Assembly: GCF_004363775.1 (NCBI RefSeq)
Contig: NZ_SNZE01000009.1
Coordinates: 1-64,000, forward strand
DNA length: 64,000 bases
Reading direction: 5' to 3'
From: Hydromonas duriensis
GTDB lineage: Bacteria > Pseudomonadota > Gammaproteobacteria > Burkholderiales > Burkholderiaceae
Positions 6,301 through 56,686 of this stretch are shown piece after piece. A program made the translations under genes and the position numbers. Position 1 is the stretch's first letter. The number at the start of each line of letters is the position of its first letter. Under the pieces are notes generated by a model. That model was not told the origin of the DNA, ran no database searches, and was given only the letters and a program-made list of their open reading frames with translations.

Positions 6301-7047
6301 TTATTTGGCTTTACCTTGGTTGGCCACTGCTGCAGTTGCCGCGGCAATCGCTTCGGCGTCGCCTAAATAGTAGCTGCGAATTGGTTTCATACGTTCGTCC
6401 AGTTCGTACACCAGCGGCTGAGCGGTCGGGATGTTTAAATTCACAATGTCATCATTGCTGATGTGATCCAAGTGTTTGACGAGCGCGCGCAGGCTGTTGC
6501 CGTGTGCAGCAATGACCACGTTTTGACCCGCCTTAATGAAAGGTACGATGGTTTCTTCCCAGTATGGAATCACGCGCTCGACGGTGTCTTTTAAACATTC
6601 TGTCGTTGGCAATAAGTCTTTTGGAATGTGAGCGTAACGCTCATCATTCCCAGGCCAGCGTGGGTCTTCTTTGTCTAAGGGATTGGGCGCAACGGCATAG
6701 GCGCGTCGCCAAATCAAAACCTGTTCATCACCGTATTGAGCTGCTGTTTCTGCTTTGTTTAAACCTTGTAATGCGCCGTAATGTCGTTCGTTTAAATGCC
6801 AATCTGGATGAACGGGGATGTACATTTGACCCATTTCGTCCAGTACTGTCCACAGCGTGCGAATGGCTCGGGTGAGCAGCGATGTAAACGCAATGTCAAA
6901 TTTAAATCCCGCTTCTTTTAATAGCTTCCCCGCACGTACGGCTTCAGCACGGCCATTTTCGGTTAAGTCGACATCAGTCCAGCCAGTAAAACGGTTTTCT
7001 AAATTCCATTGGCTTTCACCGTGACGAAATAAAACGACTTTATACAT
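6301..7047 (-). CDS. gpmA: 2,3-bisphosphoglycerate-dependent phosphoglycerate mutase
   Basis: Interconverts 3- and 2-phosphoglycerate in glycolysis. 248 residues, the usual length. The phospho-acceptor His9 sits in FRHGESQWN, the second catalytic His in [10 protein letters not shown], and [11 protein letters not shown] is the family signature. I start it at 7047, where AGAGGG precedes ATG by a good spacing; the frame is open to 7143 but that extension is not family-like. Confidence 0.96.
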
Positions 7048-7414
7048 AGCAATCCCTCTAAAAAATACAGAAAATTTTTGCGCTTGTTCAGCGTTTTGTT
7101 TTCTGTGGTTAGGTTTTGAATCTTTGTTTTGCAGCTCTGGCAAAGATAGCTTTGAATTTTACCTCTTTTTTTGTGTTATATACTCAAAATCGCTTGGCGT
7201 GGTTCCCCATCTTAAACAGAGACTCGTCTAGTTGTTTGATTTTTATTGTATTTTATTAAATATAAACGACAATGTTGATAATGAAAAACAGCGGTCGAGA
7301 GTTTTTCGTGTTTTCATAGGGCATTTGTTGGCATGACTTGGACGAGAAGTGGTTTATATTCTATAATGCTTTCTTAATTTTTCAACGATTTTAATTCCGA
7401 CATAAGGATACATT
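7048..7414. promoter_or_regulatory. Divergent regulatory region between gpmA and the rhodanese gene
   Basis: An AT-rich stretch of 367 nt with no gene. Its right part holds the promoter listed separately. The gpmA promoter should lie in the left part but I could not fix its boxes. Confidence 0.5.
7338..7367 (+). promoter_or_regulatory. Sigma70-type promoter for the rhodanese–grxC–secB genes
   Basis: TTGGAC (7338–7343), 18-nt spacer, TATAAT (7362–7367), about 45 nt before the GTG start. Confidence 0.65.
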
Positions 7415-7825
7415 GTGGATTTCTTTTTACAGCCGATGAATTTAGCTTTAGTAGCGTTTGCAGCCATTTCAGGCGGTCTTTTGGTGTGGCCAAGCATCGC
7501 GGGTGGCCGAGCGTCGCGTTTAAATGTGACAGAAGCGACGACATTAATTAATAAACGTGCTCAAGTCATTGATGTCCGTAGCGCAGAAGCCTTTGCTGCG
7601 GGACATATTCAAAATGCCAAATCATTGCCCATGAGTAATTTGGTGGAGCAGTTGCCATTGGCAAAATTGAAAAAAGACAAGCCTGTGTTATTGGTGTGTG
7701 ACCGAGGTGTTGCCGCAGCTGGAGCGGTTAAAGTATTCAGCAAAATGGAGTTTACGGATGTGCATGTACTAGACGGTGGTTTGAATGCATGGAAAGAGGC
7801 CCAGTTGCCTTTAGTTAAAAATTAA
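7415..7825 (+). CDS. Membrane-anchored rhodanese-like sulfurtransferase
   Basis: 136 residues. One N-terminal membrane segment (about 8–27) then a single rhodanese domain with the active-site Cys95 in LLVCDRG. Sulfur transfer or redox role; the substrate is unknown. The GTG start at 7415 is set by ATAAGGA 7 nt upstream. It heads the run to grxC and secB; this order is common in Burkholderiales. Confidence 0.88.
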   Translation: MDFFLQPMNLALVAFAAISGGLLVWPSIAGGRASRLNVTEATTLINKRAQVIDVRSAEAFAAGHIQNAKSLPMSNLVEQLPLAKLKKDKPVLLVCDRGVAAAGAVKVFSKMEFTDVHVLDGGLNAWKEAQLPLVKN

Positions 7826-7842
7826 ACCCTCGGAGTCATACC

Positions 7843-8103
7843 ATGCAAAAAGTCACCATGTACACTACGGGTTGTTGCCCTTATTGTATTCGAGCGGAGC
7901 AGTTGCTCAAACAGCGTGGCGTTGAACACATTCATAAAATACGAATTGACCAAGAACCCAGCCAGCGTGAATACATGATGAGTGTCACTCAACGGCGGAC
8001 GGTTCCCCAAATTTTTATTGGTGACACCCATGTGGGTGGTTTTGATGATTTATCTGCATTAGATCGCGCAGGCGGTTTAATGCCTTTATTGAACGCTGAG
8101 TAA
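7843..8103 (+). CDS. grxC: Glutaredoxin 3
   Basis: 86 residues. Small dithiol glutaredoxin with active site C12-P-Y-C15 and the conserved TVPQIFIG cis-Pro loop and GGFDDL glutathione site. It reduces disulfides and mixed glutathione disulfides with glutathione. The start follows CGGAG by 8 nt. Next to secB as in many proteobacteria. Confidence 0.96.
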   Translation: MQKVTMYTTGCCPYCIRAEQLLKQRGVEHIHKIRIDQEPSQREYMMSVTQRRTVPQIFIGDTHVGGFDDLSALDRAGGLMPLLNAE

Positions 8104-8154
8104 TCTCATCGTTTGTTTTTTTAACTGTATTATTTTACTAACTAGGATTACAAC

Positions 8155-8604
8155 ATGACTGACCAAGCTCAACCTACTTTTGACCTGCGCCGTGTGTATT
8201 TGAAGGATGCGTCTTTAGAAATGCCGAATGCGCCCGCAGTTTTTTTGGAAGGCGAAGCCCCTCAAGTTGCAGTTGAGGTCTCTACTGAACATACGCAATT
8301 GGATACATCTGCTTACGAAGTTGAAGTCAGCGTGACTTTAACGGCTCGTTTGAATGACAAGGTGTTTTTCTTAATTGAAGCTAAGCAAGCAGGCATTTTT
8401 GAAATTGCCAATTTACCTGATGAGCAATTAGAACCTGTATTGCATATTGTGTGCCCATCTATGTTGTACCCGTACTTGCGTGCAAACGTGGCCGATTTGC
8501 TCACGCGTGCGACCTTGCCGCCATTGCACTTGACTGAAGTGAACTTTGAACAGTTCTATCAAGACAAAATCGGTACAGCGGCTCCTGCAACAACGGTTCA
8601 ATAA
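8155..8604 (+). CDS. secB: Protein-export chaperone SecB
   Basis: 149 residues. Cytosolic tetrameric chaperone that keeps precursors unfolded and hands them to SecA. The YLKDASLEMPNAP start and the CPSMLYPYLRANVADL block are family signatures. An AGGA ribosome site lies 7 nt before the ATG. Its place between grxC and gpsA is conserved. Confidence 0.97.
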   Translation: MTDQAQPTFDLRRVYLKDASLEMPNAPAVFLEGEAPQVAVEVSTEHTQLDTSAYEVEVSVTLTARLNDKVFFLIEAKQAGIFEIANLPDEQLEPVLHIVCPSMLYPYLRANVADLLTRATLPPLHLTEVNFEQFYQDKIGTAAPATTVQ

Positions 8605-45545: not shown

Positions 45546-46130
45546 TTATTTTTTGGGTCTAAATGCTTTGACAACGTGCTCATGCGTGTCCAAGTAAGGC
45601 CCGCCCATCAACTCGATGCAATAAGGTACAGCGGCAAAAATCCCATGTACCTTTATCTCACCAGTATCGTTTTTCACGCCCCCCAGTGTTTCCGCAATGG
45701 CCTTGGGTCGACCAGGCAAATTTAAAATCAATGATGTGCCGCGAATCACACCGACTTGGCGCGATAGGATAGCAGTCGGCACATAATACAAGCTGATTTG
45801 ACGCATTTGCTCGCCAAAACCAGGCATGACGCGATGCGCCACGGCTAAGGTCGCATCGGGCGTGACATCTCGCGGCGCTGGCCCTGTTCCACCCGTGGTT
45901 AAAACCAATGTGCATTGATGCTGGTCGCACATTTCAATCAATGTTTGTTCGATGAGCGCTTGCACATCTGGAATCAATTGTTCAACCCACTCAATCGGGT
46001 TTTTTAATGCGCGGGTGAGCCAATCCCGTAAAGCGGGTAAGCCTTCGTCTACATATACGCCAGAACTGGCGCGGTCTGAGGTGGAAATCAAGCCAATTTT
46101 GATGGGTTGTAACGTATTGATATTATTCAT
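45546..46130 (-). CDS. mog: Molybdopterin adenylyltransferase
   Basis: 194 residues. Adenylates molybdopterin before metal insertion. Signature LTTGGTGPAPRDVTPDAT and the STSDRAS start. Four nucleotides after the moeA stop, last gene of the moaD–moaE–moeA–mog operon; no ribosome site, so probably coupled to moeA. Confidence 0.95.
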   Translation of the reverse strand: MNNINTLQPIKIGLISTSDRASSGVYVDEGLPALRDWLTRALKNPIEWVEQLIPDVQALIEQTLIEMCDQHQCTLVLTTGGTGPAPRDVTPDATLAVAHRVMPGFGEQMRQISLYYVPTAILSRQVGVIRGTSLILNLPGRPKAIAETLGGVKNDTGEIKVHGIFAAVPYCIELMGGPYLDTHEHVVKAFRPKK

Positions 46131-46134
46131 ATGT

Positions 46135-47346
46135 TCACAAAGGATAAATCGTTAAAACATCACCTGCATTCACTGTGGTGTTGGGTGGAATCTCAATCAA
46201 AGCATTGGCGACGGCACACGCCGACAGCATGTGTGACCCTTGGTTGCTTAATTTTTCGACATGCAGCACACCGTGCTCATCGCAGCGCATGACCCCACGC
46301 AAAAACTCCCTGCGCATCTCGGTTTTGTGTAAGCTGAAACTCGCTTGTGCTTTTAAATGCGCGGGTTGAGCCTTGTGCGTTGAAGTGCCACTTAATACGC
46401 GCAAAGCAGGTTCAACCAGCATTTTAAATGTGACAAAAGTGGCGACAGGGTTACCAGGCAACATCATGACGGTGCTCATGCGCGTACTTGTTTGGATGCT
46501 GCCCCATGCGAAAGGCTTCCCTGGTTTAATCAACAGCTTCCATTGTTGCAACACACCAATCGCCTCAAGGCTGGCTTTTAAATGGTCTTCTTCACCGACC
46601 GAGACCCCGCCGCTGGTTAAAATCACATCCGTATTGTTGGCCGCATCGTGTAGTCGTTTCTCGGTCTCATCGCGTTGGTCAGGTAAAATTTCGCCATCGA
46701 CCACGTGGCAGCCCAATTGATGCAGCCATGCCAATAATTGATAACGATTGGCATCAAAAATAGCCCCTGCCGCCAATGCGTTGTTGTGTGGTTCTTGTAA
46801 CTCATTACCGCTGGAAAACACAGTGACGCTAAGGGGCGCGTACACGGGCAATTCAGCGTAGCCTTGGCTGGCCGCCAAGCCAATGGCCGCAGGATTGAGG
46901 ATTTGCCCTGCGGCTAATAATAAATCACCCGCTTGAATATCCTCGCCGCGACGGCGGATATGTTGACCAAGTTGAGGCTCGCATTTGAGCTGGTTGTGCT
47001 CAACTTGAGCAGATTCTTGGGGCACGACGGCGTTTGCGCCTGCAGGTAAAGGTGCGCCTGTAAAAATACGAATAGCTTGTCCACACAACAGTTCATGGGC
47101 GGATGCGTCATCGCCCGCAGCAATGCGCCCTGTCAGCTCAAAAGTATTGTTCGAGTGCGAGTGGCCAAGGTGTAAGGCATAGCCATCCATTGCGCTGTTA
47201 TCAAAGACGGGGCTGTCGTATTGAGCCTTGATGTCATGCGCCAACACTCGACCTTGTGCTTGATGCAAAGGCGTGCTTTGAATGGATGGGCGACGCAATT
47301 CTAAGGTGGAGAGCAGTTGAGTTAAGGCGGTTTGGTAATCAAGCAT
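46135..47346 (-). CDS. moeA: Molybdopterin molybdenumtransferase
   Basis: 403 residues. Inserts molybdate into adenylated molybdopterin. DNSAMDGYAL and the GAPLPAGANAVVPQE block near 110, the MoCF-type ILTSGGVSVGEEDHLK, and VMMLPGNPVATFVTF are all present. Twelve nt after moaE. Confidence 0.96.
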   Translation of the reverse strand: MLDYQTALTQLLSTLELRRPSIQSTPLHQAQGRVLAHDIKAQYDSPVFDNSAMDGYALHLGHSHSNNTFELTGRIAAGDDASAHELLCGQAIRIFTGAPLPAGANAVVPQESAQVEHNQLKCEPQLGQHIRRRGEDIQAGDLLLAAGQILNPAAIGLAASQGYAELPVYAPLSVTVFSSGNELQEPHNNALAAGAIFDANRYQLLAWLHQLGCHVVDGEILPDQRDETEKRLHDAANNTDVILTSGGVSVGEEDHLKASLEAIGVLQQWKLLIKPGKPFAWGSIQTSTRMSTVMMLPGNPVATFVTFKMLVEPALRVLSGTSTHKAQPAHLKAQASFSLHKTEMRREFLRGVMRCDEHGVLHVEKLSNQGSHMLSACAVANALIEIPPNTTVNAGDVLTIYPL

Positions 47347-47358
47347 GGTTGAAAAGTG

Positions 47359-47865
47359 TCAATCTCGGTGTGTGGTTGAAATGCTATTTTGCCACTTTTG
47401 TAAGGCTTGTGTGTCGTTGGCTTTGGCTTCAACCCAGTGTTGTTCACCGTTCGCTAAATGTTCACGCTTCCAAAAGGGGGCTTGCGTTTTTAAATAATCC
47501 ATGATGAATTCTGCGGCCGCGAACGCGTCCTTGCGGTGACGCGAACAGATCAACACCAACACGATGACATCTGTGGCGCGTAATTCGCCCACGCGGTGAA
47601 TCACGCGCACGCCACTCAATGTCCAACGGTTGCTGGCTTCATCAATGATTCGAGCCATTTCGTTTTCGGTCACCTCTGGATAGTGCTCTAAAAACAAATA
47701 GTCCACGCGCTTGGCATCCTCTTCGTAGTCAAATTCACGCACCATGCCTTGAAAAGCCACCAAAGCACCCGCATCGTGGGCATATTGACGAAGTTCGCGC
47801 TCCTCTTCGCCTAAATCGAAAGCTTCGGTTTGAATGCGGATGTCACGCCAAAAAGCTGGAACCAT
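47359..47865 (-). CDS. moaE: Molybdopterin synthase catalytic subunit
   Basis: 168 residues. Large subunit of molybdopterin synthase, uses the MoaD thiocarboxylate to make the dithiolene. FQGMVREF, LFLEHYPEV and the catalytic Lys region FWKREHL are present. Start: ATG 47865 with AGGTGG 5 nt upstream is my choice; GTG 47874, overlapping moaD, is the alternative. Confidence 0.94.
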   Translation of the reverse strand: MVPAFWRDIRIQTEAFDLGEEERELRQYAHDAGALVAFQGMVREFDYEEDAKRVDYLFLEHYPEVTENEMARIIDEASNRWTLSGVRVIHRVGELRATDVIVLVLICSRHRKDAFAAAEFIMDYLKTQAPFWKREHLANGEQHWVEAKANDTQALQKWQNSISTTHRD

Positions 47866-47866
47866 A

Positions 47867-48115
47867 TCAGCCACCTGTTACGGGAGGTAAAATGCCAATG
47901 TCCGCACCATCGACGATGTCGGTTGTCGTGTGCGTGAGTTGACGATTGACTGCGATTTTAAAAATTTTACTCGTTTGTAAAACAGAAGCCCAAGGCTCAC
48001 CGCGCTGGCGCAGCAGTTGCAATAAATCATCTGTCGTACCGCCAGACCAAGGCACATCTTCTGTCGCGACGTTAAGTTGGTCAGCCAGTTGTCCAAAGTA
48101 TCGAATGTGTATCAT
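47867..48115 (-). CDS. moaD: Molybdopterin synthase sulfur-carrier subunit
   Basis: 82 residues. Ubiquitin-like sulfur carrier ending in the required Gly-Gly (PPVTGG), which is adenylated and thiocarboxylated. Start at ATG 48115 (MIHIRYFGQLADQL); the frame is open to 48163 but family members start here. First gene of the leftward Moco operon. Confidence 0.93.
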   Translation of the reverse strand: MIHIRYFGQLADQLNVATEDVPWSGGTTDDLLQLLRQRGEPWASVLQTSKIFKIAVNRQLTHTTTDIVDGADIGILPPVTGG

Positions 48116-48261
48116 GGTATCTGTTTTATAGTTGAGAGGGATCGTTAAGTGAGTGCGGTGCATGAGGGCAGTTATAATGTGACTTGATTGATTTTATAGC
48201 AGTATCACTGTTTTCCCATCCCCCAAAGTGATAATGGACGCATTTCTCTTCGCATGTTAAT

Positions 48262-48294
48262 GTACAACGGCACATTTTATGCCATGAATTGTAC
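48262..48294. repeat. Inverted repeat in the moaD/moaC divergent region
   Basis: GTACAA (48262–48267) and TTGTAC (48289–48294) are perfect arms, with GGCA…TGCC nested inside. It lies 69 nt before moaC in the 247-nt divergent gap. It could be an operator or an RNA hairpin; it does not match the Moco riboswitch as I know it. Confidence 0.4.
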
Positions 48295-48362
48295 GAAGTT
48301 GCACGAACCTCTCAGCAAGCACATCAAACCAATCAAACACATGGCAGACTGGATTAAAACTC

Positions 48363-48890
48363 ATGACTGAACACATCAAACACCCAGACCCACGCATGGT
48401 CGACACTGATACTTTAACCCATTTTGACTCAATGGGGCAGGCGCATATGGTTGATGTTGGAGACAAGCACAGCACTCACCGCATCGCGGTGGCGACAGGT
48501 GCTATCTATATGTCGGCGCGGGCATTTGAGCATTTGCAACCCAACGTCAATAAAAAAGGAGATGTCTTGGGCATTGCCCGTATTGCAGCGATAGGCGGCA
48601 CGAAGCAAACTGCACAGCTTATCCCATTGTGTCATCCGTTGGCGTTGACGCGTGTCGCGGTTGAATTTGAGTTGGATGAAATCAACTTAAGTGTGCGCAT
48701 CGAGGTGACGGCAGAAACCGTCGGACGGACGGGCGTTGAAATGGAAGCTTTGACGGGAGTGTCTGTTGGATTGTTGACTATTTATGACATGCTTAAAGCA
48801 GTCGATAAAGGCATGCGCATCCAAGACATTCAGTTGCAAGCAAAAAGTGGAGGTCGAAGTGGAAAATGGGTTCGAGACAGCGCATCCTGA
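48363..48890 (+). CDS. moaC: Cyclic pyranopterin monophosphate synthase
   Basis: 175 residues, second step of molybdopterin synthesis. [11 protein letters not shown] with catalytic residues, [20 protein letters not shown] and the C-terminal KSGGRSGKW are intact. Its last 32 bases overlap the next gene's GTG start, tying Moco synthesis to the sensor kinase. moaA is not in the window. Confidence 0.96.
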
Positions 48891-50799
48891 GACTTTTCAA
48901 TCGGTTGCCCGTTCAAAAAGTTTGTCAACTCGGCTATTGATATCGGTTGTTGTTTGGCTGATTTGCGCCATCGTTTTTACGGGCTATACTTTGCTATTGT
49001 CTTGGGAGCTTGAAAACGGCGGCATGGCGATTAACAACGCAGGCAGCTTACGCAAACGCACCTTTCAAATTGCACTTTTATACAATCAAGCCCCCGATTC
49101 TTTTGAGCTTCAGAACGAGCAACGTGAGTTTGAGGCGGTACTCGATGGCCTATCTACTTTTGGGCAAGGTAAGCAGCTCTTACCCAACAATCACACGGTC
49201 AGCCAGCAAGTCACTTACCTTAAGCAACAGTGGCAGCAAGTCATTTTACCTTGGTATGCGCAGCTACGGGTTGAGGGGCAAACGGTCAATTTGAACAATC
49301 GCCAACCATTAGACGCATTTGCCAACGACTTAAATACGCTGGTGAAAATGATTGAAAATGACAATACCGTCAGCATTCAACTTTTGCGCCTGTTTCAAAA
49401 ACTACTATTGGCAATGACCGTTGTCACGGCGGTGACAGGCATTTATCTGTTATTTCGTTTGGTCATTCATCCACTCGACACTTTGCGTGGTGGGATTCAG
49501 CGTTTAAGTGATGGTGATTTAAACTCAAGGGTCGTCATTCATACTCAAGATGAGTTTGGTGTCGTATCCAAAGGCTTTAACCAAATGGCAGGGCGTTTAC
49601 AAGACTTGTACAACAACCTAGAACGAAAAGTCAGCCAAAAAACCCAAGCATTGGCGCAAAAAAATCAAGAAACAAGCGACTTGTACGAAATGACCGCCTT
49701 TTTGCATCAGTCCCAAACGGCCGACGAAATGAATCGAGGTTTCATTGAACGCATGTTGAAGCTCACGGGCGCAAGCGCAGGCAGTATAAGGTTATTAGAT
49801 GCCACACGGCGCAAACTAGACTATGTCGCACACGAGGGCTTACCCCCCAGCATGATTAACAGTACAACGTGCACATCGTTGGATGCTTGCTATTGTGGTG
49901 AAGTGGCAAAACAATCGATTTTAAACACACAACCTGAAGCACAACACATTGATTTAATCCCGCTCAAGTTTGAATGCTCATGTTTGGGTTTTGTCGATTT
50001 ACTGGTGTTTCCGATTCACTTTCGCACCCAAAAACTGGGCGTGCTTGCTTTGTATTTTAACAGCGCGAGCACGGTTGACAACAACCAGAAACGTTTAATT
50101 CACGCGCTGTGCGACCAAGTGGGCGTGGCGATTGAAAACCAACGATTAATTGCGCGAGACCGACAGTTCGCCGTATCTGAAGAGCGCAACTTAATTGCCC
50201 AAGGTCTACACGACTCCATTGCACAATCATTATCATTTTTAAATCTACAAGTTCAAATGCTTGAAGCCGCCATGCAAAAAGAAGCATGGTTAGAGGCCAA
50301 AGAAAATTTAAGTTTTATCAAAAATGGCGTGCAAGAATCTTACGACGATGTACGCGAGTTGCTACTGAACTTCCGTACCCGACTGTCGAAGCAAGACTTC
50401 ACAGAAGCCGTGCAAACACTACTCAATCGGTTTGAACAACAAGTCAGCGTTCAAGCACATCTCACCCTCATAGGCGACGGCTCACCGCTTTCACCACAGC
50501 AGCAATTGCAAGTCGTCTTTATTTTGCAAGAAGCCCTGTCAAATGTGCGAAAGCATGCGCAAGCGCAACATGTGCATGTGACGATAGACAATCAAGATGA
50601 CTTTCTCATGACCATCGTTGATGACGGGCAGGGATTTGACGCAGAAAAAATTAAAACCAAGCGCACACAGCATGTTGGCACCGCCATTATGCAAGAACGG
50701 GCTCATTTGATTCACGCGCAAGTCACGCTTGAATCCAAAATTGGGCAAGGCACACGGGTGAAACTGATTTTGCCCAAAATAGAAAGAGTCTTATCATGA
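48859..50799 (+). CDS. NarX-like sensor histidine kinase
   Basis: 646 residues from GTG 48859, which follows GGAGG by 5 nt inside moaC. Order: membrane helix (26–47), a periplasmic NarX/PilJ-type domain with a P-box-like [10 protein letters not shown] (about 58–67), second helix (182–201), HAMP (to 255), a GAF-like module (about 290–430), HisKA_3 with phospho-His451 in [10 protein letters not shown], and HATPase (DDGQGFD). The P-box suggests nitrate/nitrite sensing. The GAF part carries five cysteines (338, 344, 346, 373, 375), a possible redox or metal site. It overlaps the response-regulator gene by 4 nt. Confidence 0.88.
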
Positions 50800-51449
50800 G
50801 TGATGCAACAATTAAACTACTACTGATTGATGACCATGCCTTATTCCGCAGTGGTCTACGAAGTTTACTACAGCGTCAAGATGATTTTGAAATCGTCGGT
50901 GAAGCTGCAGATGGACTAGAAGGCGTTAAATTAGCGGCTCAGCTTAAACCAGACGTTATCTTGCTGGACTTAGACATGCCCGTCATGCACGGTAAAGACG
51001 CTCTCGCACAAATTTTATCCGCCCAACCCGACATGGCGGTGCTGATGCTCACCGTCTCAGAAGATGGCACTGATTTGACCGAGTGTATGCGCACGGGCGC
51101 GCGAGGTTACTTGCTAAAAAATATCAATATCGACTTTTTATTAGACTCCATACGCAGAACCGTAGATGGTGACTCCGTACTTTCCCCTGAAATGACCACC
51201 AAACTGGTCGCACGCTTACGCTCTACAGACACACCCACAACAACGGCAAAAGTAGACAGTCTCACGCCACGTGAACGAGAAACATTGATTTGGCTGGCAC
51301 GAGGCGTGAGCAATAAACACATCGCTCGCGCTTTAGATGTGGCCGAAAGTACCGTAAAAGTGCATGTGCAAAACATCCTACGAAAACTCGAATTAAGCAG
51401 TCGTGTACAAGCCGCTGTTTACGCGGTTGAGCATGGTTTGGATAAATAA
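50796..51449 (+). CDS. NarL/LuxR-family response regulator
   Basis: 217 residues. Receiver domain with phospho-acceptor Asp58 (LLDLDMP), then a LuxR-type HTH (LTPRERETLIWLARG … VAESTVKVHVQNIL). It is the partner of the overlapping NarX-like kinase. Regulated targets are unknown; no nitrate reductase genes are in the window. Confidence 0.93.
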   Translation: MSDATIKLLLIDDHALFRSGLRSLLQRQDDFEIVGEAADGLEGVKLAAQLKPDVILLDLDMPVMHGKDALAQILSAQPDMAVLMLTVSEDGTDLTECMRTGARGYLLKNINIDFLLDSIRRTVDGDSVLSPEMTTKLVARLRSTDTPTTTAKVDSLTPRERETLIWLARGVSNKHIARALDVAESTVKVHVQNILRKLELSSRVQAAVYAVEHGLDK

Positions 51450-51532: not shown

Positions 51533-53878
51533 TCAAGAACCACAGCTGATACAGCCTTCTTCCATTGTACAGACAGCGCCTTCAACAATCTCTTCTTCCT
51601 TGGCTGGTTTTTTGTCTGAGACAGCACCGACAGTGAACTGCACGGCTTGGCTGGCGGCTTTGGCGCGCAGGTAGTAGATGCCTGTTTTAAGACCCTTTTG
51701 CCATGTGTAAAAATGCATCGAGGACAATTTTGCGATGGTCGGTTGCGCCATGAATAGGTTCATAGACTGCGATTGACAGATGAACGCGCCTCGAGCCGCC
51801 GCCATGTCGATGAGGGTTTTTTGTTTAATTTCCCACACGGTTTTGTACAGGGCTTTGAGTGATTCTGGAATGCGGTCAATGCCTTGTACAGAGCCATTGG
51901 CACGGATGAGCTCGTTGCGCATCTCGTCATCCCATAAGCCCAGCTTGACGAGGTCAATCAGCAGGTGTTTGTTGACGATGATAAATTCACCGCTCAACAC
52001 GCGGCGAGTGTAAATATTGCTGGTGTATGGCTCAAAACATTCGTTGTTACCCAGAATTTGTGAGGTTGAAGCCGTCGGCATCGGTGCGAGTAACAGTGAG
52101 TTGCGCGCGCCGTATTGGGCCAAGTTTTGACGCAATTGAGCCCAATCCCACGTATTCGACGGCGTATGTCCCCACATGTCGCATTGCAAAATCCCCTTGG
52201 ATAATGGCGAACCCGCGTAGCTGTCATAAGGGTCGTGTTCTTTGGCCAAGTCAATGGATGCGCTCATGGCGGCGTAATACATGGTTTCAAAAATACGCTG
52301 GTTGAGGGTTTGCGCCACATCAGAATCGAACGGCAAACGCAGCTTAATGAAGGTGTCGGCCAGTCCTTGTACACCGAGGCCAATGGGGCGGTGGCGCATG
52401 TTTGAATGGCGCGCTTCAGGCACGGGGTACAAATTGCGGTCAATGATTTTATTCAGGTTTTTGGTGGCGTGATACGTCACATCATACAATTTTTGATGGT
52501 TGAATTGATTGTCCTCAACGAACTTTGGGAGGGCAATTGAGGCCAAGTTGCACACGGCAATTTCGTCGGGTGACGTGTATTGGATGATTTCAGTGCATAG
52601 ATTGCTGCTTTTGATTGTGCCCAAATGCTGTTGGTTGCTCTTGCGGTTGGCATGGTCTTTGTACAACAGGTATGGCGTGCCTGTCTCAATTTGAGATTCT
52701 AAAATCGCGAACCACAATTCTTGCGCACGAATCACGCGGCGTGCCTTACCTTCAGACTCATATCGCGTGTACAACGCTGCAAAAGCCTCGCCCCAGCATT
52801 CGTCCAATCCTGGGCATTCGTGCGGGCAAAACAAGCTCCATTCGCCGTCCGCTTGTACCCGTTGCATGAATAAATCATTAATCCACATGGCGTAAAACAA
52901 GTCGCGCGCGCGCAATTCTTCTGCACCATGATTTTTTTTCAATTGCAAAAAGTCAAATACATCGGCGTGCCAAGGTTCGAGATAAACCGCAAACGCGCCT
53001 TTGCGCTTGCCACCGCCTTGGTCGATGTAGCGCGCGGTGTCATTAAACACTTTGAGCATGGGTACAATGCCGTTGCTTGTGCCGTGCGTGCCAGCAATCG
53101 TACTGCCCTTGGCGCGGACTTTGTGAATGGATAAACCAATGCCACCCGCATTTTTTGAAATGAGTGCGGTTTGTTTTAAGGTGTTATAAATGCCTTCAAC
53201 CGAATCATCTTGCATGGTCAGCAAAAAACACGAACTCATTTGTGGATGCGGCGTGCCCGAATTAAACAAGGTTGGCGTGGCGTGAGTAAACCAGCCTTCA
53301 GACATCAGGTGATAAGTTTCGATGGCGGCATTGATGTCGTCGCCATGAATACCAAGCGCGACGCGCATATACATGTGTTGTGGGCGTTCAATGATGTCGC
53401 CGTTGATGCGCAGTAAATAACTGTGTTCTAAGGTTTTAAAACCAAAATAATCAGAGTTAAAGTCGCGCTCGTATACTACAGTGGAGTCAAGCAATGCGGC
53501 GTGCTGTTTGACCGTTGCGAGCAGCTCATCCGTGATAATTGGCGAATGTTTTTTTGTATGGGCATCCGTGTTGTCATGCAGCTTTTGCATGGTTTCTGAA
53601 AATGATGCCGACGTGTTTTTATGCAAACGACTAATCGCTAACCGTGCCGCCAATAGTGCGAAATCAGGATGTTGCGTGGCCATACTGGCCGCCGTTTCAG
53701 CCGCCAGATTATCCAGCTCCGTGGTGGACACGCCATCGTACAAGCCCATGATGACTTTTTTAGCCACTTCAATCGGTTCAACCATGGGGTGCAGGTTGTC
53801 AGACAGTTTGCTGATACGGGCGGTGATTTTATTGAGTTGAACGGTCTCTTGTTGACCGCTGCGTTTGGTAACGAACAT
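51533..53878 (-). CDS. nrdA: Class I ribonucleotide reductase alpha subunit, eukaryote-like
   Basis: 781 residues; makes dNDPs from NDPs with NrdB. ATP-cone start ([17 protein letters not shown]), [11 protein letters not shown], active-site Cys/Asn/Glu in SNLCTEI and [11 protein letters not shown], and a redox C-terminus [12 protein letters not shown]. The length, the [10 protein letters not shown] block and the CGS end resemble eukaryotic RRM1 rather than the ~950-residue type usual in Betaproteobacteria. ATG 53878 follows AGGAG by 5 nt; the frame to 53944 is an artefact. Expressed with nrdB behind a cobalamin riboswitch. Confidence 0.95.
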
Positions 53879-54031
53879 GGGGGCTCCTAAATATGAATGT
53901 GCGGTTATGAATCTCAGGTGGTGACGGCAACAAGGGCGCACCACCTCGATTTAGCGAGTGGACGAGAGGCGATGAAAACAGTGGGTTTGTCGTTTGTAAG
54001 CTTTAAAAAGACTCAAAAAACTTAAAAAGAC

Positions 54032-55048
54032 TTAAAAATCTTCTTCCAATGAGAAAATTTGGTCGTTCTTATTGCCCAAAACCCCCGCTTTTTGATAATC
54101 GCCCACCCGTTTTTCAAAGAAGTTTGTTTTACCTTCGAGAGAAATCATCTCCATGAAATCAAACGGATTCTTGGTGTTGAACAGCTTGGCGTAGCCCAAC
54201 GCGGCGAGCCAGTGGTCGGCCACAAACTCAATGTATTGGCTCATCAACTCAGCGTTCATGCCAATCAGACTGACAGGCAACGCCTCGCAGACGAAGTTTT
54301 TTTCAATTTTGACGGCATCTGAAATAATCGCGTGGATGGTTTCGGTTGATAAACGTTGCTTGAGCATGTGATACAAGGAGCAAGCAAATTGGCAGTGCAA
54401 AGCCTCATCGCGGCTAATCAATTCGTTGCTGAATGTTAAGCCTGGCATCAAGCCGCGTTTTTTCAACCAAAATAAGGCGCAAAAACTGCCGCTAAAGAAA
54501 ATGCCCTCAACCGCTGCAAATGCAACCAATCGTTCAGCAAAATTCCCTTGTTCAATCCAGCGCAAAGCCCAATTGGCTTTTTCTTTAACCGCAGGAATGG
54601 TTTCAATGGCGTTGAACAAAAAGTCTTTTTCGTCTTGCTTTTGGATATATGTGTCGATGAGCAAGGCGTATGTTTCTGAGTGAATATTTTCCATTGCCAC
54701 TTGAAACCCATAAAAACAACGCGCTTCGGGCACTTGTACTTCCTGCATGAAGTTAACCGCCAAATTCTCATTGACGATGCCATCAGATGCGGCGAAAAAA
54801 GCCAATACATGGCTGATAAAGTGCCGCTCACCCGAAGACAAAGACCACCAGTCTGCTAAATCGCTTTCTAAATCAATCTCTTGCGCCGTCCAAAAGCTCG
54901 CTTTGTGTTGCTTATATTGTTGCCATAAATCAGGATGTTGTATGGGCAAAAGCACGAAGCGATGCGGGTTGTGCGCCAAAATAGGCTCAACCGAAGGGTC
55001 AAAAGTGTCGCTGAAAAAAGATGGCTGTTCAATGGTGTAATTAGTCAT
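54032..55048 (-). CDS. nrdB: Class I ribonucleotide reductase beta subunit, eukaryote-like
   Basis: 338 residues. Ferritin-like subunit with the di-iron/tyrosyl radical: Asp89 (AASDG), Glu120 and His123 (MENIHSE), radical Tyr113 in CFYGFQ, later [13 protein letters not shown] and YIEFVADHW. These segments match eukaryotic RRM2 closely, including the C-terminal acidic -FSLEEDF tail that docks on the alpha subunit. AGGGG precedes the ATG. The 153-nt gap to nrdA has no gene. Confidence 0.96.
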
Positions 55049-55275
55049 GGTAAACCCCTGTTAAAGGTGTTCCGAAATTCACCAAAGATGCGCAAGTAAT
55101 GCAAGATATCCGCTCAAAATCACCGTAGCGGAATGGGGGCATGTGCACGCCTTTGGTACGAAGGCTTGCACACATAATCATTTGACAGGTATCTGACTTG
55201 GGTCGGACAGCATACAGTGCTGAAAACCGACTTTACAGTTGCGCCACAGTCCATGAATTTCACATGGTTCCCTGA
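55049..55275 (-). promoter_or_regulatory. Cobalamin riboswitch and expression platform of nrdBA
   Basis: Read on the minus strand. The core spans about 55275–55182: GGGAA, the P-stem CCATGTGAAATTCATGG, the B12 box GACTGTGGCGCAACTGTAA (55251–55233), a variable hairpin, and AGTCAGATACCTG (55198–55186). These are the conserved elements of the family. A long hairpin (55173–55141) and a second one near 55130–55105 follow, then the nrdB ribosome site AGGGG. No T-run follows the hairpins, so control is probably at translation: B12 would shut off this B12-independent reductase. Confidence 0.93.
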
Positions 55276-55287
55276 GTTTTTTGTTTA

Positions 55288-55323
55288 ACCATTTGATTTT
55301 AAATGTCATTAAATTCAAATGGT
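55288..55323. repeat. Inverted repeat just upstream of the riboswitch
   Basis: ACCATTTGA and TCAAATGGT (9-bp arms, 18-nt AT-rich spacer). It lies where the nrdBA promoter should be. It does not fit the NrdR box; it may be an operator. Confidence 0.45.
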
Positions 55324-55554
55324 GTTGTAAAAAAAGAAAATGATGTCAGTGTGTTGGGTGTCATGATAACAAAAAAAGCACAGGTAGAAAGTGCCAAATC
55401 CATTCTATTTTTGATTTCAGTTCGTCATCAGTTGGTCGTTATTTAGGAGTTAAATCTGCTAAATAGGATGTAAAAAAATCGGTAAGCACATGATTCATAC
55501 ATGAATTTTTATCTAAAAAATGTCAAATCATTAAAATATTGACTTGTTTGAACG
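55324..55554. promoter_or_regulatory. AT-rich promoter region of nrdBA
   Basis: About 230 nt without an ORF of note, rich in A and T runs. It must carry the nrdBA promoter, but I cannot choose a -10/-35 pair with confidence. Confidence 0.35.
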
Positions 55555-55651: not shown

Positions 55652-56590
55652 TTAACCGCGTGCTTGTTCAATCAATTTCACCAGCTTTTCGGTGTCAACA
55701 CAGAATGCACGAATGCCCTCGGCGAGTTTTTCACACGCCATCGCATCATTATTGAGCATCAAGCGGAAGCTCGATTGTGTCAATTCAAGTCGTTGAATAT
55801 CCATGTTCTGTGCCGCAGCCGCGCTTAATGCGGGTTTGACAGCATCATGGCTCGCTTGCATGGTTGCCAATAAATCGGGGCTAATCGTCAATAAGTCACA
55901 ACCCGCCAAGCCGAGAATCTGACCGACATTACGGAAACTCGCGCCCATTACTTGGGTTTTGATGCCGAATTTTTTGTAGTAGTTATAAATGGTCGTCACA
56001 GAGGCGACACCAGGGTCGTTGCTCATGTCGTATTCAATGCCTGTTTGCTTTTTGAACCAATCGTAAATGCGACCGACAAAAGGTGAAATTAAGGTCACGC
56101 CCACATCAGCACAAGCCACCGCTTGCGCGAGGTTAAACATTAACGTCAAATTGGTGTGGATGCCTTCTTGTTCAAGCACTTTAGCCGCTTGAATGCCTTC
56201 CCATGTGGCCGCGACTTTAATCAAAATGCGCTCGCGGCTGTACCCTTGTGCTTCGTATAAAGCGATGATGCGACGACCACGCGCAATCGAACCTTCGGTG
56301 TCGAATGATAAGCGCGCATCGACTTCAGATGACACACGACCAGGAATGGTTTTTAAAATTTCGCAACCAAAAGCCACCAGAACATGGTCCATAATGTCCG
56401 CGACAGATTCAGCCGCATGGGTTTTAACCGTAGACTCAAACAAAGGCTGATATTCGGGTTTTTGTACCGCTTTTAAAATTAAAGAAGGATTGGTGGTCGC
56501 GTCTTGAGGTAAAAACTGGGCAATCGCCTGAAAATCGCCTGTATCCGCCACGACAGTGGTCAGTGCTTTAAGTTGCTCTAATGTACTCAT
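55652..56590 (-). CDS. tal: Transaldolase
   Basis: 312 residues. Non-oxidative pentose phosphate pathway. Schiff-base Lys in [23 protein letters not shown] at the start and [17 protein letters not shown] in the middle. Start at ATG 56590, 7 nt after TTGGAG; the in-frame TTG at 56602 contains the ribosome site and is not the start. Confidence 0.96.
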
Positions 56591-56686
56591 GCGTTTCTCC
56601 AATCAAATAAAGTGAGTGGCGAGCCAAGCTCACCTTGAATTTTTGAAATTGTATCTTAAATTTTAAGTGAATTTACGTCTTAGTCT

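Follow-up and report, generated by a model that had tools for sequence, protein, structure and literature searches.

The nrdBA locus and its leader

Why should a reductase that needs no vitamin B12 stand behind a B12 sensor? The question is raised by contig NZ_SNZE01000009.1 of Hydromonas duriensis (assembly GCF_004363775.1), whose first 64,000 nucleotides (nt), called the window here, were analysed as a whole. On its minus strand, a cobalamin (B12) riboswitch directly precedes nrdBA, the genes for a class I ribonucleotide reductase (RNR). We consider it highly probable that this element is a B12-responsive OFF switch on the class I RNR, acquired with the operon from Bacteroidota. The central features are as follows.

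55167..55334, minus strand: aptamer of a cobalamin riboswitch (RF00174) in compact form, its P6 arm short, called from its covariance score and from a core that genus mates share with G026 and G069, two genomes of a second genus.
55251..55267, minus strand: aptamer helix P4 (CCATG / CATGG), called from pairing and compensatory changes across leaders.
54032..55048, minus strand: nrdB, class I RNR radical subunit of eukaryote/Bacteroidota type, 338 amino acids, ATG at 55048, called from PF00268 and mouse R2.
51533..53878, minus strand: nrdA, class I RNR catalytic subunit with an ATP cone, 781 amino acids, ATG at 53878, called from TIGR02506 and Pfam.

Searching the window against all Rfam families returned two matches, one tRNA and RF00174 on the minus strand. 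The RF00174 match, 55334-55167(-), spans the full model (1-189) at 40.7 bits (gathering score 31.5; E = 7.7e-07 for 64 kb against all of Rfam), and its 3′ end lies 118 nt from the nrdB ATG. A first-pass annotation, made from the letters alone, had named cobalamin riboswitch motifs in this leader, and every one is present in the order given: GGGAA at 55272-55268, the P4 hairpin CCATG-loop-CATGG at 55267-55251, GACTGTGGCGCAACTGTAA at 55250-55232 and AGTCAGATACCTG at 55198-55186. The covariance match bears out the call and places the aptamer start about 60 nt upstream of the end at 55275 noted there. A single short hairpin separates ACTGTAA from AGTCAG, giving the aptamer its compact form.

Helix P4 was compared across 39 nrd leaders, 32 from Bacteroidota and seven from two genera. 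In the 24 leaders showing the compact form, standard pairs fill 119 of 120 cells, with compensatory changes at two positions (AT, CG and GC at one; TA, CG and GC at the other). Because of the covariance score, the confined distribution of the core pattern described below and these compensatory changes, we reject a chance match as the source of the aptamer.

Behind the leader, NrdB matched PF00268 at 374 bits. Its top relative of solved structure was mouse R2 (484 bits), and entries such as 1mrr, which we take to be E. coli R2, reached at most 58 bits. The alignment to mouse R2, compared over a single stretch, retains MENIHSE-Y (E..H...Y), presumably metal ligands and the radical tyrosine. NrdA, searched without its first methionine, matched TIGR02506 at 714 bits together with PF03477, PF00317 and PF02867. 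Judged by these matches, nrdBA is a class I, B12-independent RNR, as first annotated, and of the eukaryote/Bacteroidota type.

A B12-dependent reductase in the same genome

The first-pass annotation had also predicted a B12-dependent NrdJ elsewhere in this genome, and one is there. The assembly (2.43 Mb, 99.8% complete; the window is part of contig C9) encodes two large RNR subunits, the window NrdA and a 984-amino-acid NrdJ. The latter matched TIGR02504, the adenosylcobalamin-dependent RNR model, at 616.7 bits (cut-off 399.95), and its nearest solved-structure relative is the B12-dependent RNR 1xje. Class III RNR (PF13597) had no match in the genome; a control search was positive in 6/14.

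A search for B12 uptake, proposed in the same annotation, also returned a candidate. The genome has only two RF00174 matches. One is the nrdB leader; the other, C15:5280-5531(-), lies 66 nt ahead of the gene for a TonB receptor whose top NCBIfam model is TonB-B12 (326.8 bits, under the equivalog cut-off of 599.7). A PduO-type adenosyltransferase and MetH (L007 3903-6548(+)) are encoded, and a BtuR/CobA-type adenosyltransferase had no match in the genome. The genome thus appears equipped to take up and adenosylate B12, the receptor being assigned below its equivalog cut-off. Taken together, the gene content supports the predicted B12-set switch between two reductases, and the computed checks that could have refuted the annotation went in its favour.

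MetH is apparently split, with parts at L007 1101-2114(+) and 3903-6548(+), about 1.8 kb apart; the assignment of the first part is tentative. The gene adjoining nrdJ is presumably secA. Relatives of NrdJ occur on plasmids of Cupriavidus, Caballeronia and Variovorax, among others.

A Bacteroidota-type operon in a proteobacterial genus

We examined the best 80 of at least 580 NrdB relatives in a named genome collection. By their titles all 80 are Bacteroidota, 72.8-78.1% identical to the window NrdB, and in 80/80 loci nrdA follows nrdB on the same strand (NrdA 65-71% identical). Within the class, 213 of 369 genomes have some NrdB match, the best other than the window's own being 36% identical among the matches listed. 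Across 200 genomes of the family, the next NrdB after the genus stands at 34% among the matches listed. PF02867 gave 720-727 bits for nrdA of five genus genomes and 631-649 bits for the best RNR in most other family genomes, the exceptions being G026 (462.5 bits) and three genomes of about 200 kb that had no match. By these comparisons, the class I RNR of the window differs from the type usual in its family.

Six genus genomes were sampled, G000 (the window's own) to G005; five carry an NrdB of the window type (86-100% identity), and the same five carry the aptamer core pattern. At a tolerance of three mismatches, 7 of the 200 family genomes contain the core pattern, namely the five of the genus plus G026 and G069, and the other 193 do not; a backwards control pattern gave 0. 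G026 and G069 belong to a second genus (g22), sampled by three genomes, the third being G083 (70% complete). The exact pattern was found in the window genome only among the 369 class genomes, where G000 alone represents its family. In a FastTree NrdB tree, the genus forms one clade (support 1.0).

NrdB relatives at 62-66% identity also occur in five phage records, covering two Tenacibaculum phages in three records (ON950054, LC168164/NC_049383) and two uncultured phages of about 640 kb (LR756502, LR756504). These proteins are less similar to the window NrdB than those of Bacteroidota. A phage origin of the leader was considered and rejected: the phage collection held no similar leader at E 0.1, and viral contigs lacked the exact core.

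Riboswitches of Bacteroidota nrdBA loci

Of the 80 Bacteroidota loci, 32 have an RF00174 match directly ahead of nrdB and on its strand, with 78-238 nt separating the riboswitch end from the NrdB match. By batch the counts were 8/16, 4/16, 7/17, 7/17 and 6/14, four loci of the first batch having been preselected by a motif scan. Left out of the 32 are L048 and L083 (opposite strand) and second, far-downstream matches in L058 and L114. An aptamer regular expression caught 4 of the 32; since it missed most, the counts rest on Rfam scans.

Local alignment to the window leader scored 73 for L067, 70 for L086 and 66 for L081, and 17 of the 32 Bacteroidota aptamers exceeded 30. The comparison set was 82 RF00174 matches of relatives with no nrd genes behind them, and its best score was 30 (29 matches at 25 or less, the genome's own btuB-side riboswitch at 16, and 52 more at 30 or less). 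Nine of these 52, compact riboswitches of family members up to 170 nt long, scored 17-30. Genus mate G001 reached 71, which is not above the 73 of L067, so the best Bacteroidota likeness equals the widest likeness within the genus. The exact core pattern is present in L067, L086 and L114, and 38 of 39 aligned core bases are identical between L067 and the window. On this evidence, the class I RNR of the window was probably acquired together with its riboswitch.

In thirteen loci, all titled Pontibacter (L053, L054, L077, L080, L089, L094, L098, L101, L109, L115, L117, L118, L119), the minus strand carries an S-box S-adenosylmethionine riboswitch some 1.4-2.6 kb ahead of nrdB, and these loci show no cobalamin riboswitch.

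The same leader before an unrelated class I enzyme

The leaders of G026 and G069 align to the window leader with scores of 104 and 99. G026 matches the window at all 38 bases of the core, and its hairpin downstream of the aptamer is the same with few changes. This leader precedes genes for E. coli-type class Ia subunits, NrdA (NF006578, 1480 bits) and NrdB (NF006576, 725 bits), and G069 has the same arrangement at 98% identity; matches to both models are far above cut-off in the two genomes. Between the two genera, NrdA identity is only about 30%. NrdJ of the window genome and G026 is 84% identical; elsewhere, the figure is 61-65% for six genomes from other families and, over the best stretch, 44-68% for twelve NrdJ of eleven other family genomes. 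With NrdJ and sensor shared and the class I RNR differing, two courses are conceivable: a new enzyme took the place of the old one behind the sensor, or the sensor changed operons. The sensor seems both to have travelled with the enzyme under its control and to have persisted longer than it.

In G069, metE adjoins the riboswitch-nrdAB unit upstream (L190, G069:C3:98000-106500, at 6337-8499(-)), making neighbours of two B12-independent isozymes; G026 has an Lrp-like regulator gene in its place. Both genomes also have, close to nrdAB, a gene for a B12-binding radical SAM protein with DUF4080 (L150 1277-2806(-), L190 429-1958(-)), and a 72% identical counterpart lies elsewhere in the window genome (L009 3912-5432(+)).

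A predicted OFF switch and the rest of the leader

How might the switch work? Plentiful coenzyme B12 would bind the nrdBA leader, and expression of the di-iron, oxygen-dependent class I RNR would stop. The reason would be that NrdJ, the adenosylcobalamin-dependent class II enzyme, can then supply deoxyribonucleotides. In B12 shortage the leader would open and the class I RNR would be made. We infer B12 binding and repression by analogy with described B12-controlled, B12-independent RNRs of organisms in which NrdJ is present. Two further features flank the aptamer.

55142..55173, minus strand: hairpin GCCTT-CGTACCA-AAGGC with an outer stem, directly 3′ of the aptamer, candidate P13/L13 partner of L5.
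55339..55380, minus strand: conserved stretch 5′ of the aptamer that may contain a promoter -10 region (TGTTATCAT) and the transcript start, called from leader comparison.

The hairpin recurs in the form CCTTCG....AAAGG in G001, G002, G003, G005, G026 and G069. L5 and L13 loops were extracted for 27 of the 39 leaders (misread in L110, L113, G026 and G069). Their pairing is clear in some Bacteroidota leaders (CGGG/CCCG, TGCG/CGCA), and over 14 unique pairs 30/56 positions are Watson-Crick versus 24.5 when shuffled (p = 0.02, some loops being misread). The stretch 5′ of the aptamer resembles those of G002, G005, G026 and G069, each score being reached by 0/300 shuffles; no sigma-70 consensus match was found within the 55339..55380 region.

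Between the aptamer and nrdB we found no intrinsic terminator pattern on the minus strand. Attenuation through an intrinsic terminator was therefore set aside, and control at the translation start (or through Rho) is more likely.

Weighing the alternatives

The history we infer is that riboswitch and nrdBA would have entered the lineage together from Bacteroidota, replacing the family's own nrdAB, and that in the second genus the same leader would now command an unrelated E. coli-type nrdAB. Several observations weigh against this account and the OFF switch that goes with it. The Rfam score of the window is modest, and 4 of the 6 sister leaders of the two genera fall below Rfam cut-offs: RF00174 gave 77.1 bits for G001, 31.7 for G005 (barely above cut-off) and 27.3 for G002 (below), and RF01482, an adenosylcobalamin (AdoCbl) riboswitch family, was the top model for G003 (34.7), G026 (43.7) and G069 (45.8 bits), all under its gathering score of 50; the window leader, unlike these three, scores best with RF00174. 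Rfam scores alone are weak evidence on such compact leaders. Fifteen of the 32 Bacteroidota aptamers are no closer to the window's than are riboswitches of the family. The node that nests the genus within Bacteroidota is supported at only 0.339, which leaves room for a sister position and for another donor. G004, of the same genus, has NrdJ and shows neither the class I RNR nor the leader, but is only 85% complete. The likely promoter stretch is common to 4 of 6 leaders and does not extend to G001 (score reached by 216/300 shuffles) or G003 (188/300). Complementarity of L5 and L13 in the window is weak, with two Watson-Crick pairs and one wobble of four. Masking of the ribosome-binding site exceeded that of shuffled leaders (5% level) in one of seven leaders, G003, complementary stretches having been noticed before the test; masking lacks general statistical support, and no clear expression platform emerged.

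In a rival history, the riboswitch is native or separately acquired, a Bacteroidota-type operon landed behind it later, and the likeness to Bacteroidota aptamers is convergence among compact cobalamin aptamers. That the same leader, part of the likely promoter included, precedes an unrelated nrdAB in the second genus means that leader and coding genes can separate, as this history needs. Yet the variant occurs in no other of the 200 family genomes (three mismatches) or 369 class genomes (exact), the Bacteroidota loci L067, L086 and L114 hold the exact pattern, with all but one aligned core base shared by L067, and the nine compact riboswitches of the family score below those, which speaks against this history. 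We regard such an origin as unlikely, though it deserves to be kept in view. The low Rfam scores of several sister leaders, together with the weak L5-L13 pairing and the lack of a clear expression platform, could also mark a decaying relic, an aptamer that came with the operon and lost control, so that NrdR or nothing regulates nrdBA. Across 7/7 leaders of the two genera, however, the core is intact although flanks, P6 arm and leader length vary widely, and we hold decay to be very improbable.

The sign and ligand of the switch could differ as well. Compact cobalamin riboswitches include forms selective for methyl- or aquocobalamin, and the leader here is compact, with no long peripheral arm, as might befit an ON switch or a sensor that follows light or redox state through methyl- or aquocobalamin. 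Described cobalamin riboswitches before a B12-independent RNR are taken as repressing (PMC545781, PMC4991794), and we judge an ON switch or another cobalamin cue improbable. An OFF switch acquired with its operon stays our preferred reading. A stronger proposition is that the riboswitch is a portable front end, which passed from Bacteroidota to a proteobacterium with its class I operon, displaced the native genes and later, in the second genus, had its RNR exchanged; here we find the case evenly balanced.

Neighbouring genes

55652..56602, minus strand: tal (transaldolase), upstream neighbour of the nrdBA leader, TIGR00874 at 454.8 bits.

Two terminator-like patterns, both on the plus strand, lie between tal and the nrdBA leader, and tal is probably outside the riboswitch-nrdBA unit. 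Just 3′ of nrdA, window positions 45546-51449 hold what we take, by eye, to be molybdopterin-related genes and a NarX/NarL-like sensor/regulator pair.

Relation to known systems

Control of a B12-independent RNR by a B12 riboswitch is already established, in Streptomyces nrdABS and delta-proteobacterial nrdDG. For Streptomyces coelicolor nrdABS, coenzyme B12 control was reported from experiments (Borovok et al. 2006, as cited in PMC4991794). That system shares with ours a cobalamin riboswitch before a class Ia RNR and NrdJ as the B12-dependent alternative; it differs in phylum and in the nrdS regulator of its operon, and B12 control in our case is predicted. In Desulfovibrio vulgaris and Desulfuromonas, B12-elements precede nrdDG, with B12 repression proposed (PMC545781), and a similar nrdD case is reported for Chlorobium (PMC8620254). 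As here, a B12 element precedes a B12-independent RNR, and the delta-proteobacterial genomes likewise encode NrdJ; the RNR controlled there is the anaerobic class III, whereas in the window genome it is class I. Bacteroidota nrdBA agrees with the window in gene order, in the riboswitch directly upstream in part of the loci and, in a few, in a compact core shared almost base for base, and differs in phylum and in the many aptamers with no special likeness to the window's.

Judged by titles and abstract openings, the open-licence literature covered by our search, supplements being outside it, gave no account of Bacteroidota nrdBA switches or their transfer to a proteobacterium, and none of one leader before two unrelated RNRs. 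"Isozymes of B12-dependent enzymes" are a class of cobalamin-riboswitch targets in PMC3766115, and single Bacteroidota nrdBA cases may stand in its supplements.

Meaning for the lineage

Which class of RNR a cell relies on determines its synthesis of DNA precursors when oxygen, iron or B12 is scarce. To the lineages in which B12 governs that choice, our analysis adds one where it probably does, and since no class III enzyme turned up that could offer a third route, the wiring should be simple to trace. Such a riboswitch stands before 32 of the 80 nearest nrdB genes from Bacteroidota, so B12 control of class I RNR may be frequent in part of that phylum. The two genera, with shared NrdJ and leader and unrelated class I RNRs, form a natural experiment, in which one can ask whether a riboswitch and the enzyme it regulates evolve as one unit or separately. 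If the front end is indeed portable, the main target of selection would have been the response to B12 as such, coupled to a stable NrdJ, and less any particular class I enzyme.

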